Part shown: positions 9,039 to 18,523 of the stretch, in pieces
How positions within the stretch are numbered: position 1 is the first letter of the stretch
Layout of the letters: every line of letters starts with the position of its first letter
Source: Candidatus Zixiibacteriota bacterium
GTDB lineage: Bacteria; Electryoneota; B3-LCP
Reading direction: 5' to 3'
DNA: 35,716 bases
Assembly (NCBI GenBank): GCA_003599535.1
Contig: QZKQ01000053.1
Coordinates: 1 to 35,716 of the forward strand
Program-made: the position numbers and the translations under genes
The notes under the pieces: model-generated
What the model saw: the letters and a program-made list of their open reading frames with translations, nothing else
Told to the model about the DNA's origin: nothing
Database searches by the model: none

Positions 9039-11048
9039 ATGCGCAAGTTATCCGTTTCCCTGGCGCTTGTGGCCCTGATGGTCCTGGTGCCGGCGGCTTA
9101 CGCCCAGGTGCTCTACGAGATTCAGTACGACGACGGCATCTCGGTGTACTATTCCGGCCGGCCACAGCCCAACGACACCGTCGGCGTCTGGTTCGAGCCG
9201 CCCACGGATGCCCGCATCGTATCAGCGCGGTTCCAGATCACCTCGAACTCGCCCAATACCAACGGCCAGATCTACATCTGGGACGTGGCGGACGGTTTCG
9301 ATCCCGCCAACTACTATGACAATGACGAGCCCGGCGGCGGTCCGGCGCCCAGTCCCCTGGGAGCGATTCTGGCGGGACCCATCAACTACACCTTCCTGGG
9401 TAACAACCAGTGGGAAGAAGTCGTCTTCGAAGATTTCGGTTACCCCCCGTCCGCCCTCGACGTAGGCACCGAACCCTTCTTCGTCGGCTATGTGCTGAGC
9501 CCCGGCAATCCCAATCCCTTCGACCCGTCCCTGCTGGGTGATGCCGCCGATGCCCGTCCCTATCACAGCCTCTGCTATCTGACCAACCCCGGGGGCATCT
9601 ATTCCGGCCAGGCCGGCTGGTATGCCTACGGCATTGACTGGCTGCTGCGTTCCACCGTGGATCTCTACGGCGACCCGCCGCCCACCGTAGCGAGTATAAT
9701 TACCGCCGATAATCCGGGCGATCCGCCCGACACCTACACCATGGGCCCCTATGACGTCGAAGCCACCGTCACCGACCAGGCGGTGGGCGGCGGCCCCGGC
9801 ATGGTGGATGAGGTGCGGTTGTTCTACACCATCTCCTGGTGGGGCAACTGGGGCAATCCCGTCGCCAATACCAGTGTGGTCATGAACAATGCCGGTGGCG
9901 ACGTCTACACCGCCCAGATTCCGGCCCTGGAACACGGCCAGCGGGTCCGGTTCTACGTGCAGGCGACCGACACCGCCAACCACGTCACCGCCTACCCCAA
10001 CACCGACGGCTACGAGTTCTCCTTCCGTATTCCCGGCCTCTTCTCCGATATCCTGCTGGTGAACGACGGGCAGGCTGACGAAGAAGCCGACTTCTACAAG
10101 CAGGCGCTGGACAACGCCATGTTCCTGTATGACTACTGGTACATCGGAGCCGGTAGTGCGGAAGGCCAGGGGTATCCCGGCAGCGATGTGCTGGATATCA
10201 ACACCTACACCTCGGTGATCTGGTTCACCGGCACGGCCAATCCCGGGAATCTGCCGGATAACGACGCTGATCTGACCACGGACCCCGTGGCCCAGTTCAT
10301 CGACGCCGGCGGTAACTTCTTCCTGTCCAGCTCGGATTACCTGGGCGGCGCCTTCAACCCCGACGATTGGGACGAATTCACCGCCATTCCCGGCACCTTC
10401 ATGTACGACTATCTGATGGTGGAATCCGGCTGGTCGGATTCCCACATTGATCCGGGCCTCGGCGAATCTCTGGATACGACGTACTACGGCGTGGCCGGCG
10501 ATCCCATCTCCGGCGAGTACACCAATCCGTTCACGACGAATCCCGACCCCAATTACAACGACTTCGTCTATCCGCGGACCGGCGCCACCACCATCTTCTA
10601 CACCCAGATTGACGATGAGCCGGCCGGGCTGCGCTTCGAAGGCGGCACCCCCGCTCACAAAGTCGTCTTCCTGCCCTGGATCCTGGAAGCCACCGTCGAT
10701 CCCTCCATCGGCCAGGGCATCCTGGTGAACGTGATCGAGTGGTTCGGCGTGGCCGGAGTGGAACCGGTGGCCGGCCCGACCCCGCAGACCTACAACCTGG
10801 CTCAGAACTATCCCAACCCGTTCAACCCCGTCACCACCATCGAGTTCTCCCTGCCGGTGGCGGAGCGGGTCCAGCTCACCGTCTTCAACCCCATGGGCCA
10901 GGAAGTGGCCCGCCTGGTGGACGGCAACATGGGCGCCGGCACCTACAGCTTCACCTGGGATGCCTCCAACCTGTCTTCCGGCATCTACCTCTACAAGCTG
11001 ACCGCCGGTGACTTCGAGCAGCTCCGCAAGATGATCCTGGTGAAGTGA
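9039..11048 (+). CDS. Secreted multidomain protein with T9SS type A sorting domain
   Basis: 669 residues, start supported by GGAGGAG 5 nt upstream. A signal peptide (LALVALMVLVPAAYAQ) is followed by a beta-rich N-terminal domain (about 24-210). Next comes an Ig/FN3-like domain (about 215-330) with the recurring pattern GGDVYTAQIP and RVRFYVQATDTANH. A Rossmann-like region (about 335-560, beginning SDILLVNDGQ) resembles the glutamine-amidotransferase-like domains often found in secreted FCB proteins. The C-terminus has NYPNPFNPVTTI, SSGIYLYKL and a final KMILVK, a canonical type IX secretion sorting domain. No catalytic triad could be assigned with confidence. It is the last gene of the envelope block before the pyrimidine operon. 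Confidence 0.7.
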   Translation: MRKLSVSLALVALMVLVPAAYAQVLYEIQYDDGISVYYSGRPQPNDTVGVWFEPPTDARIVSARFQITSNSPNTNGQIYIWDVADGFDPANYYDNDEPGGGPAPSPLGAILAGPINYTFLGNNQWEEVVFEDFGYPPSALDVGTEPFFVGYVLSPGNPNPFDPSLLGDAADARPYHSLCYLTNPGGIYSGQAGWYAYGIDWLLRSTVDLYGDPPPTVASIITADNPGDPPDTYTMGPYDVEATVTDQAVGGGPGMVDEVRLFYTISWWGNWGNPVANTSVVMNNAGGDVYTAQIPALEHGQRVRFYVQATDTANHVTAYPNTDGYEFSFRIPGLFSDILLVNDGQADEEADFYKQALDNAMFLYDYWYIGAGSAEGQGYPGSDVLDINTYTSVIWFTGTANPGNLPDNDADLTTDPVAQFIDAGGNFFLSSSDYLGGAFNPDDWDEFTAIPGTFMYDYLMVESGWSDSHIDPGLGESLDTTYYGVAGDPISGEYTNPFTTNPDPNYNDFVYPRTGATTIFYTQIDDEPAGLRFEGGTPAHKVVFLPWILEATVDPSIGQGILVNVIEWFGVAGVEPVAGPTPQTYNLAQNYPNPFNPVTTIEFSLPVAERVQLTVFNPMGQEVARLVDGNMGAGTYSFTWDASNLSSGIYLYKLTAGDFEQLRKMILVK

Positions 11049-11123: not shown

Positions 11124-11150
11124 CTCCGGGTTGCATCAACAAAGTAAAAG

Positions 11151-12771
<1,621 letters not shown>

Positions 12772-12772
12772 C

Positions 12773-14017
12773 ATGGAAGCGATTAAACTGCCCCAGACTC
12801 TGTGGCTGAAGAATGCCCGTCTGCTCGATCCGGCGCTGGACCTGGACATCCGCGGCGACCTGCGGGTGGAGGACGGTCGGGTGGCCGCCGTGGGGAAAGC
12901 CTCCGGCGGCGGCGCCTCCTGGGACTTGCAGGGCGCGGTGGTCTGCCCCGGCTTTTTCGACCTGCACGTCCACCTGCGCGAGCCCGGCAATGAAGAGGCC
13001 GAAACCATCCGCTCCGGGCAGGAAGCAGCCGCGGCCGGCGGGTTTACCGCCGTCGCTGCCATGCCCAACACCACTCCGGCGCTGGATCACGCCGGGCTGG
13101 TCCGCTGGGTGGTGGATTACGCCTCAACATTCCCCGTGGCGGTGTACCCCGTGGGGGCCATCACCAAGGGGCGCCAGGGAGAAGAGTTGACTGAAATGGT
13201 GGAACTGCGCCAGGCCGGCGCCATCGCCTTCAGCGATGACGGCTCGCACGTCAAGTCCGCCGAGATCATGCGCCGCGCCCTGGAATACAGCCTGCTGACC
13301 GGCGCCCCCATCATCACCCACGCCGAGGAAGGCGGCCTGTCCCTGGGCGGGGCCATGCACGAAGGGGAATGGTCCACCCGCCTGGGATTGCCGGGCATCC
13401 CCCGCCTGTCCGAAGACATCGCCACCGTGCGCGACCTGATGCTGGCCCAGTACACCGGCGGCCGGCTGCACCTGGCCCACGTATCCACCGCCGGCGCCCT
13501 GGAAGCACTGCAATCCTTCCGCACCCGGGGCACGCGGGCCACCGGCGAAGCCACTCCCCACCACCTGCTGCTGACCGACGCCGCCGTGGCCGGATATGAC
13601 ACCTCCACCAAAATGAAGCCGCCGCTGCGAGAAGAGGCCGACCGCCTGGCGCTGTGGGAAGGGCTGAAGCAGGGGGTCGTCACCGCCGTGGCCACCGACC
13701 ACGCCCCCCACACCTGGGACGACAAGGAAGTCACCTACGACGAGGCCGCTTTCGGCGCCCTGGGGCTGGAAACCGCCCTGGGCCTGATCTGGGATCGCGG
13801 GGTGCGGGCCGGGCTGATTTCGCCGGCGGAGATGATCCGGCTCTTCTGCCACGGCCCCCGCGCCGTGGTGGACGCGCCCCAGCCGGCGCTCCAGGCGGAA
13901 ATCCCCGCCGAACTGACCATCTTCCACCCCGACGAGGAGTGGACCGTGGAAACCGAACGGTTCTACAGCAAAGCGAAGAACTCCCCCTTCGCCGGGTGGA
14001 ACCGGGCTTCTAAGGCC
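12773..14017 (+). other. pyrC: PyrC (dihydroorotase) part of the fused frame
   Basis: About 415 residues cyclising carbamoylaspartate to dihydroorotate, the third pyrimidine step. All expected metal-binding segments are visible: HVH at 65-67, the FSDDG Asp, THAEE, AHVST and ATDHAPH. The normal C-terminal strand (a GR..TIVGGR-type ending after FAGW) is absent, so the small beta-sandwich of the amidohydrolase fold is incomplete. In another frame a TAA occurs at 14011-14013, seven bases before the first SelB-frame ATG. Confidence 0.85.
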
Positions 14018-15958
14018 ATGACCGCCCCACGGCACATGATCGCCGCCACCGCCGGCCATATTGACCACGGCAAGACCGCCCTGGTCCGGGCTTTGACCGG
14101 CATGGAGACGGATCGCCTGGAAGAGGAGAAGCGGCGCGGCATCACCATCGAGCTGGGCTTCGCCTTCCTGGGCCGCAACGTCACCCTCATTGACGTCCCG
14201 GGCCACGAACGTTTCATCAAGACCATGGTGGCGGGCGTCAGCACGGTGGACCTGGGGCTGCTGGTGGTGGCCGCCGACGACGGCGTCATGCCCCAGACCC
14301 GCGAGCATCTGGACATCCTGCGCCTGCTGGGCGTCCCCCGGCTGTTCGCGGTGCTGACCAAGGTGGACGGCCTGGAGCCGGACTGGGTGGGGATGATCGA
14401 GGAGGAGGTCCGCGAGCTGCTTCCCGATGAGTACCGCGCCGCGACCCCCTTCTTCCGCTGCGATGCACTGTCCGGGGAGGGGGTGGAGGCGCTGAAAACC
14501 GCTCTCCTGGCGCTGGCGGACCGTCTCCCGCCGCGCCGGGACCGCGGCGTCTTCCGCCTGCCCGTGGATCGGGTGTTCAGCGTCAAGGGGTACGGCACTG
14601 TGGTCACCGGCACCATCCTGGGCGGGAGCGTCCGCGCCGGCGACCGCCTTCGCGTCATGCCCGGCGTCCGCGAGGTCCGGGTGCGGGGGATGCAGAGTCA
14701 CGGCGTGGACCGGGATAGCCTGGGCGCCGGTGACCGGGCGGCGCTGAACCTGGGCGGCTTGGAAGCCGGGGACCTGGGCCGCGGCGATTGGTTGTGCGAG
14801 CCGGAGGCCGTTCTGCCCAGCGAGCGGCTGGACGTGGCGCTGGACGTCCTGGAACACGCCCCGCCGGTGAAGCACCGCGACCGGGTGCACTTCCACCTGG
14901 GCACCGGGGAGATCCTGGGGCGCATCCTGCTGCTGCGGGACGAGGCGGCCTTGCCCGGCCGCCGCACGGTGGCCCAGGTACGCCTGGAAGGCCCGGTGGC
15001 GGCCGCCCGCGGGGATCGCTTCGTCATCCGCCGCTATTCCCCTCCGGAGACACTGGGGGGCGGGGAAGTGCTGGACCCCCTGCCGGAAGAGCGCCGCCGC
15101 GGCGACCTGCCGGAAACGTCCGAACTGGCCGCGCTGGCCTCCGCGGCGGACCTCGAAGCGCTGGCGTGGAAGGTGCGCCGGATGGGGACGGCGGGACTGC
15201 CGTGGGATCAGGCCCGGGCCTTCGCCGGACTGCCGGTGGCGGGACTGGATGGGGTGGTTGGGCAGTTGGAAGCGCGCGGAGAGATATTGCGCCTGGGGAG
15301 CGCCGCGGGGATGATCCTGTTCAGCCGTGAAGCTCTGGAACGGGCGCGGGAGGCGATTCGGACGCGCCTGGACGATTTCCACCACCGCTTCCCCGACCAG
15401 CTCGGGTTGACCCGGGCGCGCCTGCTGAGCGACCTGGCCGCGGTCTTCCCCCCGGCGTTGCTGGAACGAGCGCTGGACGACCGGGCGAGCGGCGAACCGG
15501 TCCTGGAGAAGGGAGTGCTGCGCCGCGCCGGACACCGGATCCACCTGGAGGCGGATACCGCGGCCCGGGCGGATCGCGTCGAAACCCTGCTGCGGGAGGC
15601 GGGCCTGGCGCCTCCGGGATTGGAAGCCCTGGCCCGGCAGGCGGGCCTGACGGAAGCCGACTTGGTGCGCTTGCTGGGCGTTATGCAGGCCCAGGATCGG
15701 GTGGTACGCCAGGAGGATTTCTACTGGGCTGCTGAAGCGGTAGACCGCGCCTGGGAAATCGTCCGCCGGGAGCTGGCCGCCGGGGCGGGACGGACCACCT
15801 CCGACCTGCGCGAAGCCCTGGGCTGTCCGCGGCGCCATGCTGTCGCGCTACTGGAACATTTCGATCGCCTGGGACGTACCCAGAGGCGGGAAGATTTTCG
15901 CTTCCCCGGCCCGGAGTTCGCTGCCTCCGCATCGCACATTGAAGCAAAAAATCCTTGA
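12773..15958 (+). CDS. pyrC-selB: Continuous frame: dihydroorotase PyrC joined to selenocysteine elongation factor SelB
   Basis: A single open frame of 1061 residues. Residues 1 to about 415 are a type I dihydroorotase: metal ligands in DLHVHLREPG (His65/His67), FSDDGSHVKS, THAEE, LAHVST and the ATDHAPH Asp. The part ends at SPFAGWN, where family members continue for roughly 15-20 more residues. There is no stop. From Met416 or Met422 the frame continues as SelB with the complete N-terminal GTPase start (ATAGHIDHGKTAL). AAGGAG precedes ATG 12773 and pyrB ends 1 nt upstream, so it is co-expressed with pyr genes. It may be translated as one fusion, or SelB may also start internally. A one-base sequencing or real frameshift cannot be excluded. 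Confidence 0.8.
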   Translation: MEAIKLPQTLWLKNARLLDPALDLDIRGDLRVEDGRVAAVGKASGGGASWDLQGAVVCPGFFDLHVHLREPGNEEAETIRSGQEAAAAGGFTAVAAMPNTTPALDHAGLVRWVVDYASTFPVAVYPVGAITKGRQGEELTEMVELRQAGAIAFSDDGSHVKSAEIMRRALEYSLLTGAPIITHAEEGGLSLGGAMHEGEWSTRLGLPGIPRLSEDIATVRDLMLAQYTGGRLHLAHVSTAGALEALQSFRTRGTRATGEATPHHLLLTDAAVAGYDTSTKMKPPLREEADRLALWEGLKQGVVTAVATDHAPHTWDDKEVTYDEAAFGALGLETALGLIWDRGVRAGLISPAEMIRLFCHGPRAVVDAPQPALQAEIPAELTIFHPDEEWTVETERFYSKAKNSPFAGWNRASKAMTAPRHMIAATAGHIDHGKTALVRALTGMETDRLEEEKRRGITIELGFAFLGRNVTLIDVPGHERFIKTMVAGVSTVDLGLLVVAADDGVMPQTREHLDILRLLGVPRLFAVLTKVDGLEPDWVGMIEEEVRELLPDEYRAATPFFRCDALSGEGVEALKTALLALADRLPPRRDRGVFRLPVDRVFSVKGYGTVVTGTILGGSVRAGDRLRVMPGVREVRVRGMQSHGVDRDSLGAGDRAALNLGGLEAGDLGRGDWLCEPEAVLPSERLDVALDVLEHAPPVKHRDRVHFHLGTGEILGRILLLRDEAALPGRRTVAQVRLEGPVAAARGDRFVIRRYSPPETLGGGEVLDPLPEERRRGDLPETSELAALASAADLEALAWKVRRMGTAGLPWDQARAFAGLPVAGLDGVVGQLEARGEILRLGSAAGMILFSREALERAREAIRTRLDDFHHRFPDQLGLTRARLLSDLAAVFPPALLERALDDRASGEPVLEKGVLRRAGHRIHLEADTAARADRVETLLREAGLAPPGLEALARQAGLTEADLVRLLGVMQAQDRVVRQEDFYWAAEAVDRAWEIVRRELAAGAGRTTSDLREALGCPRRHAVALLEHFDRLGRTQRREDFRFPGPEFAASASHIEAKNP
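14018..15958 (+). other. selB: SelB (selenocysteine-specific translation elongation factor) part, possible internal starts at 14018 and 14036
   Basis: From ATG 14036 this is 640 residues, a full SelB length. G-box motifs are GHIDHGKT (G1), RRGITIELGF (switch I), DVPGHERF (G3), LTKVDG (G4) and LSGEG (G5). Domains II and III follow (VDRVFSVKGYGTVVTG is a strong SelB/EF-Tu domain II mark). The C-terminal part from about 15100 is helical with LTRARLLSDL and TTSDLREALG segments, consistent with the winged helices that bind SECIS RNA. SelB carries Sec-tRNA to UGA codons. TAAGG before ATG 14018 is a weak ribosome site. No selA, selC or selD is in the window. Confidence 0.9.
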
Positions 15959-15999: not shown

Positions 16000-16072
16000 G
16001 CCACTCTAGCTCAGTAGGTAGAGCACCGCCCTGAAAAGGCGGGTGTGCCCAGTTCGATTCTGGGGGGTGGCA
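16000..16072 (+). tRNA. tRNA-Phe (anticodon GAA)
   Basis: 73 nt cloverleaf. Acceptor GCCACTC (16000-16006) pairs with GGGTGGC (16065-16071) with one G-U; the discriminator is A 16072. D arm GCTC/GAGC, anticodon stem CCGCC/GGCGG with loop CTGAAAA giving GAA at 16033-16035, and T arm CCCAG/CTGGG with loop TTCGATT. CCA is not encoded (CCT follows), so tRNA nucleotidyltransferase must add it. It is a single-gene unit with its own promoter and terminator. Confidence 0.95.
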
Positions 16073-16082
16073 CCTCAAAACG

Positions 16083-16119: not shown

Positions 16120-16225
16120 CAGAGGTTAGTGGGTGCGCCTTTCCCTTTTTTCCCCCTCTTACCTTGACTTTCCCCGTGGAATTTCGTATCTTTTTCCAGA
16201 CTGCCACAAATCAGGAGGAAGAGGC

Positions 16226-18523
16226 ATGATTCGCCGACTCGCGCTGCTCTGTGCCGCCGGGATACTGCTGGCGGGGCTGCCCGCCTGGGGTCTCGATCCC
16301 GCCTACCATACCAACGAAGAGATCTACCAGGAAATCACCGCCCTGCAACAGCTCTATCCCACCATGGTCCGGGTGGATACCATCGGGTATTCCCACCGGG
16401 ATCACCTCCCCATCTGGGCGGTCAAGCTCTCCCACAATGTCGCGGTGGATGAAGACCAGCCCACGGTGCTGTTCGTGGGGCAGGTCCACGCCGAGGAAAT
16501 CCTGGGGGTGGAGGTGGTCATGGCGCTGCTGGATACCATCATTGACCTGCGCCAGGCGACTCCCTTCAACATCTATCTGCAGCAGTTGGAGATGTGGTTC
16601 GTGCCCACCGCCAACCCGGAGGGCCACGCCGTGGTGATGGATTCCCTGGACTTTTCCTACCGCAAGAACAAGCACGACATCAACGGGAACGGCGTCTTCG
16701 ACTACTTCCCCGGCATGGGCGGGGACATTGACGGGGTGGACATCAACCGCAACTTCCCCCTGAACTGGGCCAAAGGGGACACCTTCATGCAGCCGGGCGG
16801 CACCGAGTCCTACGACTACTATCGCGGGCCTGCCCCCCTGTCCGAGACCGAAACCCAGGCATTGTGGGAATTTGGGGCGCGGGAACGGTTCGCCTTCTCC
16901 CTCGTCTGGCACAGCTCCCGGTCCGGGCATAACGCCGAAAAGATCTTCTATCCCTGGGATTGGGACGATTCCGGGAAACTGCCTCCCGACCACGCCGCCC
17001 TGGACGAGGCCGTGGAAAACCTGTCCGGGCTGATCCCCCGGCTGGTGTCGGGCTACTACAACCCCTTCCCCACCGACGCTCCGCGCGGCAATCAGCACGA
17101 CGCCACCTACGCCGAATACGGCGCCTTCGCCTACCTGATCGAGTGCGGTGACGCCAACCTGCAGCCGCCCTACCCCATCATGCGTCAGGTGATCCTGGCC
17201 AACTTGCAGGGCGCCTACTATATCCTGGCCCGCGCCACCGGCTATGAGACCGCCCCCATCCGGGCCCGGTTGACCGGCACGGTGAAGGACCCCGCCGGCC
17301 TCGCGCTGTCCGCCGTGGTGACCATTTCCGAACTTGACGGCCCCTACCTGAAGCCGCGGACCTGCGACCCCGATTACGGCCGCTACCGCCGCTACCTCAT
17401 GCCGGGAACGTACACCTTGAACGTCAGCCTGCGCGGCTACTACCCGCAAACCCAGACGGTCAACGCCGGCAACACCTGGCAGACCACGCGCAACTTCACC
17501 CTGCAGCCCAAACCGTCGCACCTGCTCCAGGGCGTGGTGCAGTCGCTGATTGGCGGGGACCCCCTGGCCGGCACGCTCTACATTCACGGCGAAGACGTGG
17601 CCGACACCGTGGTCTATGATGCAAGCGGGACTTTCAGCCACACCCTGCCGGAAGGCGACTACGCCCTGACCTTCGACAGCCCCGGTTACGTGGTCCGCTT
17701 CAGCCAAATTACGCTGAATGACGACCTGAACCTGATCTTCGAGCTGTCCCCCGCCACGACCCTGTTGGCGGAGACGTTCGAAGCCGGCCTGGCCTCCTGG
17801 ATCAGCGGTGGGAGCAACAACTACTGGGGCGTCGAAATATCCGATTCCCTGTGGAACGGCAGCCAAGTGGCCACCGAAAGCCCCTACTTCGATGATTCCC
17901 TGAACACCGACTGCTGGCTGGAATACGGCCAGCCCCTGGATTTGAGCAGTTCCCTGACCGCCGCCCTGCGCTTCCACCACTGGCAGTACCTGGAGCCGGG
18001 CTACGATCACGCCTTCGTGCAGGTCAGCTCCAACGGCGGGTCCAGCTGGGAAACCGTGGCCGGCCCCTTCGACGGGCAGGACCTGGGCTGGGGCGCCGCC
18101 TACGCCGACCTGACGCCCTACTGCGGGTTGGGCGACGTGCGCCTGCGCTTCTGCGTCTGGACCGACAACACTCTGCGCTGGCCGGGCTGGCGCCTGGACG
18201 ACGTCACCGTAACTGCGGCCGACACCGTCAGCGCCGTCCCGCCGCAGGACCTGCCGCAGGACTACGCCCTGGTGTCCCTGTACCCCAATCCCTTCAATTC
18301 CCGCCTCAGCGTGAAGGTGACGCTGCCCCAGGCCGGCCCCGCCGACCTGGCGGTGTGGGACGTCCAGGGCCGCCTGGTATCGCGCCTCCATGCCGGGACA
18401 CTGTCCGCCGGAGCCCACCGCTTCACGCTCGAGATGCCCGCCGGCCAAGCCTCGGGGATGTACTTCCTGCGGCTGGAACGCGCGGCCAAGACCACCATGC
18501 ACAAGATCGTATATTTAAAGTAG
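16226..18523 (+). CDS. Secreted M14-family zinc carboxypeptidase with T9SS sorting domain
   Basis: ATG 16226 follows AGGAGGAAGAG and opens a clear signal peptide (LLCAAGILLAGLPAWG). 765 residues. The peptidase domain (about 30-340) has the zinc motif HAEE (His88, Glu91), NPEGH, the DINRNFPLNW substrate-Arg motif (Arg175), the third zinc ligand in WHSSRSG (His229) and catalytic Glu306 in YLIECGD, so it should be active. A carboxypeptidase-regulatory-like beta domain follows (about 345-480), then another, then a jelly-roll/MAM-like domain (about 510-665: FEAGLASWISGG, WRLDDVTV). The end is a sorting domain (YPNPFNSRLSV, SGMYFLRL). It probably trims peptides at the cell surface or outside the cell. 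Confidence 0.85.
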   Translation: MIRRLALLCAAGILLAGLPAWGLDPAYHTNEEIYQEITALQQLYPTMVRVDTIGYSHRDHLPIWAVKLSHNVAVDEDQPTVLFVGQVHAEEILGVEVVMALLDTIIDLRQATPFNIYLQQLEMWFVPTANPEGHAVVMDSLDFSYRKNKHDINGNGVFDYFPGMGGDIDGVDINRNFPLNWAKGDTFMQPGGTESYDYYRGPAPLSETETQALWEFGARERFAFSLVWHSSRSGHNAEKIFYPWDWDDSGKLPPDHAALDEAVENLSGLIPRLVSGYYNPFPTDAPRGNQHDATYAEYGAFAYLIECGDANLQPPYPIMRQVILANLQGAYYILARATGYETAPIRARLTGTVKDPAGLALSAVVTISELDGPYLKPRTCDPDYGRYRRYLMPGTYTLNVSLRGYYPQTQTVNAGNTWQTTRNFTLQPKPSHLLQGVVQSLIGGDPLAGTLYIHGEDVADTVVYDASGTFSHTLPEGDYALTFDSPGYVVRFSQITLNDDLNLIFELSPATTLLAETFEAGLASWISGGSNNYWGVEISDSLWNGSQVATESPYFDDSLNTDCWLEYGQPLDLSSSLTAALRFHHWQYLEPGYDHAFVQVSSNGGSSWETVAGPFDGQDLGWGAAYADLTPYCGLGDVRLRFCVWTDNTLRWPGWRLDDVTVTAADTVSAVPPQDLPQDYALVSLYPNPFNSRLSVKVTLPQAGPADLAVWDVQGRLVSRLHAGTLSAGAHRFTLEMPAGQASGMYFLRLERAAKTTMHKIVYLK

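Follow-up and report, generated by a model that had tools for sequence, protein, structure and literature searches.

Two complete sel operons with two non-identical tRNA-Sec genes have been described in one genome, that of Photobacterium profundum 3TCK (Santesmasses et al. 2017, PMC5330540). Term searches of a 2026 review on the selenoproteins of prokaryotes (PMC13188914) yielded no dual systems. Type I dihydroorotase (PyrC) is represented in the PDB by the enzymes of Aquifex aeolicus (1XRF/3D6N) and Bacillus anthracis (3MPG), the selenocysteine elongation factor SelB by that of E. coli (5LZB-D), and the PyrR-attenuated pyr operon is known in its Bacillus type (RF00515), with a PyrR leader before pyrR, pyrB and pyrC. 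The window studied here, the whole 35,716-nucleotide stretch of DNA from a Candidatus Zixiibacteriota bacterium that was analysed, has the same genes behind a candidate leader of this type, but the last gene of its pyr operon encodes a selenocysteine elongation factor. The PyrC of the window has the whole catalytic barrel of the A. aeolicus and B. anthracis enzymes, including the HVHLREPG, SDDG and ATDHAPH motifs (best PDB matches E about 1e-93), but it ends at GWN, has lost the last two C-terminal strands and is attached to SelB. That SelB resembles the E. coli factor over its full length, with GTPase, domain 2, SelB beta-barrel and winged-helix domains, but is fused N-terminally to PyrC, is encoded in a pyr operon and is the second SelB of its genome. 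As in P. profundum, two non-identical tRNA-Sec are found in one genome; whereas the former is a single genome noted in passing, the SelA, SelB and tRNA-Sec lineages here are anciently separate and are kept in all six genera of the window's class, and two SECIS classes occur in the window's phylum.

All features of the locus lie on the forward strand. A match to the PyrR-binding leader and attenuator (RF00515) was found at positions 11148–11231 and contains a terminator hairpin and a U-rich run; it scores 43.7 bits (E 9e-4), short of the gathering score of 54. The same type of element precedes pyrR in three of the five relatives compared (G001, G002 and G004), in each case also below the gathering score. 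It is followed by pyrR (11214–11819, start codon uncertain), which has the same place in the gene order of the five relatives at 77–85% identity, and by pyrB, encoding aspartate carbamoyltransferase (11749–12771), which directly precedes pyrC in the five relatives at 74–81% identity. The listed frames of pyrR and pyrB share about 70 bases (11749–11819), and because their aligned parts overlap similarly in the relatives, the true start of pyrB is uncertain. All six genomes of the class keep the order pyrR-pyrB-pyrC-selB, with the contig of G002 ending inside selB. A tRNA-Phe gene (GAA) follows at 16000–16074, and in G001, G003, G004 and G005 this selB likewise has a tRNA gene behind it. Of the claim, made by a reading of the sequence alone, that selB is under PyrR control, the leader itself was matched and its score fell short of the gathering threshold; such control is supported, not proven. 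Elsewhere in the window, including 9039–11048 and 16133–18523, several large proteins of secreted type end in a sorting-like C-terminal YPNPFN tail, a type known from bacteria of the FCB group.

The open reading frame at 12773–15958 runs for 1061 codons without a stop, from PyrC into a complete SelB, as the sequence-only reading had described. Both parts match their NCBIfam models above the cut-offs, residues 11–414 as dihydroorotase (TIGR00857, E 3.5e-122) and residues 422–1039 as SelB (TIGR00475, E 2.9e-102). The PyrC-derived part comprises residues 1–410 (12773–14002). It retains all residues that are invariant across 19 homologues in the alignment, including H67, H69, R71, N101, D157-D158, H185, H238 and D311 (numbered as in the PyrC of G005), and the binuclear-metal amidohydrolase motifs of type I dihydroorotases (HxH, the Asp/Lys ligand, two His and DHAPH) are all present. 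Matching to dihydroorotase ends at GWN, about residue 410, and the beta-strands that close the small domain at the C-terminus of type I enzymes are absent; the normal tail is gone. No second dihydroorotase was seen in this genome among the matches listed, which run to near E 1e-35.

A linker of about 11 residues, RASKAMTAPRH, leads from PyrC into SelB, and the peptide FAGWNRASKAMTAPR spans the junction of the fused product. From about residue 418 SelB is complete, with GTPase, domain 2, SelB beta-barrel and winged-helix parts. Counted from the ATG at 14018 it has 646 amino acids (14018–15958); the motifs GHIDHGK, DVPGHE and TKVD are present, SelB-wing_2 and SelB-wing_3 score above gathering, and E. 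coli SelB could be aligned up to the last domain. There is no sign of decay, as no stops occur, all domains are present and its terminal branch in the SelB tree is 0.59, compared with 0.43–0.70 in orthologues. An apparent internal TAA in the corresponding SelB of G001 was merely the PyrC stop caught in an over-long match.

An AlphaFold model of the intact PyrC of G005, where the gene is separate, was obtained at a mean pLDDT of 86. In this model the part missing from the window corresponds to two strands, 412–422 and 425–428. The cut thus takes the last two predicted strands of PyrC and puts SelB in frame. Since the catalytic residues are located upstream of the lost tail, a loss of stability in the PyrC part is more likely, judged from the model, than a direct loss of catalysis.

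The junction was compared with five relatives of the same class, one per genus and each from a genus other than that of the window. In all five, pyrC and selB are adjacent yet separated by a stop codon, the finding in related genomes that had been named beforehand as speaking against a continuous gene. The C-terminus of PyrC in the relatives reads GW[EK]L.GRPWGILK…WAGR..P.F*, and selB starts immediately after it; the pyrC stop and the selB start overlap in G003 (TAATG), and in G005 the selB start appears to lie inside the 3′-end of pyrC. From the proline codon of P[FY].GW to the end of the stop the distance is 87 nt in G001, G003 and G005 and 90 nt in G002 and G004, which have one extra Lys codon, against 29 nt in the window. 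The window is therefore short of the relatives' PyrC tail by exactly 58 nt. Between the stop and the SelB P-loop the window keeps the usual distance, with 40 nt against 28–41 nt in the relatives.

The original end of pyrC is still legible out of frame. At 13993–14013 the window encodes RVEPGF followed by TAA, matching the relatives' WAGR[VI].P.F*, for example RIQPGF* in G001. The out-of-frame TAA at 14011–14013 and the ATG codons at 14018 and 14036 had already been pointed out from the sequence, as had the likeness to a broken ordinary gene border, which the stop kept between the two genes in the relatives confirms. The loss of a single base, offered at the same time as a possible cause, is ruled out by the difference of 58 nt from all five relatives. 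One deletion of this length, which is not a multiple of three, would account at once for the loss of the PyrC tail, for the TAA left out of frame and for the fusion. At 13991–14003 a single copy of GCCGGGTGGAACC fits both the A-G-W-N and the A-G-R-V-E-P codons. This suggests that a pair of short direct repeats recombined, and the copy would be the scar left by the deletion.

The history of the locus may be depicted as follows. The ancestor would have had an ordinary PyrR-regulated operon, pyrR-pyrB-pyrC-selB2, with the start of selB2 at or overlapping the pyrC stop. A deletion of 58 nt, most likely by recombination of two short GC-rich direct repeats, a pair inferred for the ancestral sequence, would then have removed the codons of the last beta-hairpin of PyrC and shifted the frame, so that the old stop is bypassed and translation proceeds through RASKA into SelB2. 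This would give one fused product, presumably functional, unless ribosomes also initiate at the ATG at 14018. We hold it probable that such a deletion, in the living cell, fused pyrC to the selB2 of a second selenocysteine system. The fusion is a single-species event, and its product was not designed as a two-domain protein. In 61 genomes no further PyrC-SelB fusion came to light, and a scan of GTDB contigs for such a protein, the search proposed from the sequence alone, gave none either, its 28 matches covering PyrC or SelB alone. One match spanning 10–674 in G016 was rejected as a second fusion, being pyrC, a TGA stop and then the gene of another GTPase, apparently lepA. The literature searched had no account of PyrC fused to SelB, nor of a second SelB.

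The fused frame may instead yield two products, SelB2 being made mainly alone from the ATG at 14018 or 14036 and PyrC arising as a truncated or extended by-product. The first of these codons stands where the separate selB of the relatives starts, and the alignment to E. coli SelB begins at the second. However, the ribosome-binding signals are poor, with a weak AAGG two bases before 14018 and none before 14036, and the stop-start coupling of the relatives' pyrC and selB is gone in the window. We regard this reading, which is compatible with the deletion model, as possible and somewhat doubtful.

An assembly artefact, in which pyrC and selB2 are normal separate genes and the draft lost 58 bases at a short repeat within GC-rich sequence, is unlikely, though it deserves consideration. 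The stranded PyrC tail has not decayed, so that either the event is very young or the assembly is in error; the RVEPGF-TAA remnant and the gene spacing are kept as perfectly as if no evolutionary time had elapsed. The source is moreover a draft of 140 contigs, and the junction was found in no relative. Against this, a repeat of 13 bases is below the usual assembly k-mers and is a poor cause of a mis-join. The SelA, SelB and PyrR-PyrB genes of this genome are otherwise free of stops and frameshifts, and the Sec UGA of selD is the one expected there; with no further unexpected stops in the genes examined, the assembly does not appear error-rich. A real deletion is on balance clearly favoured over an assembly error. 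Finally, that the joining was itself selected as a bifunctional PyrC-SelB enzyme is very improbable: the frame is continuous, the PyrC catalytic residues and all SelB domains are kept and the two genes are neighbours across the whole class, but no second fusion turned up in the genomes and contigs searched, the stop codons of the relatives refute a conserved form of it, and the junction removes part of the PyrC fold and leaves a frameshifted remnant behind, as an accident would and a designed linker would not.

The SelB joined to PyrC by the deletion is not the only one in its genome. All six genomes of the class contain two SelB, two SelA, two tRNA-Sec and one SelD. In the genome of the window (G000), the other SelB is located on contig C79 and is 41% identical to the SelB of the window, the SelA genes are found on C12 and C2 and the tRNA-Sec genes on C49 and C95; the single SelD has an in-frame UGA itself. 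With SelA, SelD and tRNA-Sec present alongside the SelB of the window, these components may be expected to work together. In both systems SelA can be aligned along its length with solved bacterial SelA, and SelB with E. coli SelB. Both tRNA-Sec of the class have the anticodon UCA, keep G73 and fold well, and a second Sec codon is ruled out by this shared anticodon. The two tRNA types are 69–74% identical to one another, whereas within the class identity is 97% for type I and 90% for type II.

Across the phylum (n = 39 genomes), two SelA and two SelB occurred together in the same eight genomes, namely the six of the class, including G002 in which the second SelB is cut by the contig end, and G010 and G015. 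The latter two, outside the class and incomplete, have one tRNA-Sec each. Only type I parts were found in family f2, and only type II parts in families f3, f4, f5 and f8. A system I clade, consisting of f1, f2 and the available members of f6 and f7, was supported in the trees of SelB (100/99), SelA (100/100) and tRNA-Sec (100/100). The pyrC-linked SelB falls outside this clade and is therefore the SelB2 of system II, which has its own SelA, SelB and tRNA-Sec, all three of lineages distinct from those of the first system. Since the SelA, tRNA-Sec and SelB genes of a given system do not lie together in the class, the pairing of the parts rests on their co-occurrence across the phylum, and within the dual genomes the pairing of tRNA, SelA, SelB and SECIS would follow the same lines. 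The second SelB, SelA and tRNA are unlikely to stem from contamination of the bin, as both sets are found in all six genomes, of different genera, with congruent trees. In G026, which has one SelA and one SelB, a second and weaker tRNA-Sec match (48.9 bits) was seen (C16 and C71).

Two classes of SECIS hairpin were displayed by the selD loci (L100–L105, L183, L199–L221 and L286–L288). In class II, a 7-bp hairpin with the loop GGA/GGU follows the selD UGA in 24 of 24 genes (f1, f3, f4, f5 and f8). The inner Ala/Leu codons GCG/CTG are kept in all 24, as are six of the seven pairs, the remaining one being kept in 23, and compensating changes occur, one of them inside the window's class (G004). 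Class I is a 6-bp hairpin with the loop AGUUR, found in 7 of 7 genes of the family with system I only, also with compensating changes. Across the phylum the selD hairpins sort by Sec system content, and in the window's class the only gene found with either hairpin was selD, with class II. In the dual genome G010, selD adjoins selB1 and a type I tRNA-Sec, and its loop is nearer to class I. The same genome has, besides the UGA-containing SelD, a second SelD without UGA (L198/L289, G010:C475).

As the class's own selD has a class II hairpin, system II would be expected to read it through the SelB2 of the window, which is thus probably needed for making SelD. SelB2 is predicted to bind Sec-tRNA-Sec and a SECIS element, the candidate being the class II hairpin downstream of the selD UGA. 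Pattern searches for class I and class II hairpins gave no system I clients in the class; matches to the class I loop pattern were due to chance only, such as a coding coincidence in a gene that reads as msrB, and the class II pattern gave selD and apparent chance matches in coding sequence. Formate dehydrogenase alpha was rejected as a Sec client, no UGA-containing match being present in the class.

In the proposed arrangement, SelB2 would have a dedicated SelA (G000:C2) and a dedicated tRNA-Sec (G000:C95, UCA) and would form with them a second complete selenocysteine system, inserting Sec at UGA codons that precede a class II hairpin, that of selD included. The first system, consisting of SelB1 (C79), SelA (C12) and tRNA-Sec (C49), would read a different hairpin class, and we infer that the two are orthogonal in the cell. 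That the whole class runs two separate Sec systems per cell, each with its own tRNA-Sec, SelA and SelB, both at UGA and told apart by two SECIS hairpins, with one tied to the pyrimidine operon and its SelB fused to PyrC in one species, we consider only a little better supported than its opposite.

The fusion illustrates neatly how operon neighbours may become a two-domain gene through a small deletion mediated by repeats. Taken alone it is of modest interest, and the lead to two coexisting Sec systems outweighs it, provided that their separateness holds. If true, the class would possess natural parallel recoding machineries that have the codon in common and differ in the RNA signal. The discrimination of SECIS elements by SelB and the choice of tRNA by SelA would then become testable, and the two systems may offer paired parts for genetic-code engineering.
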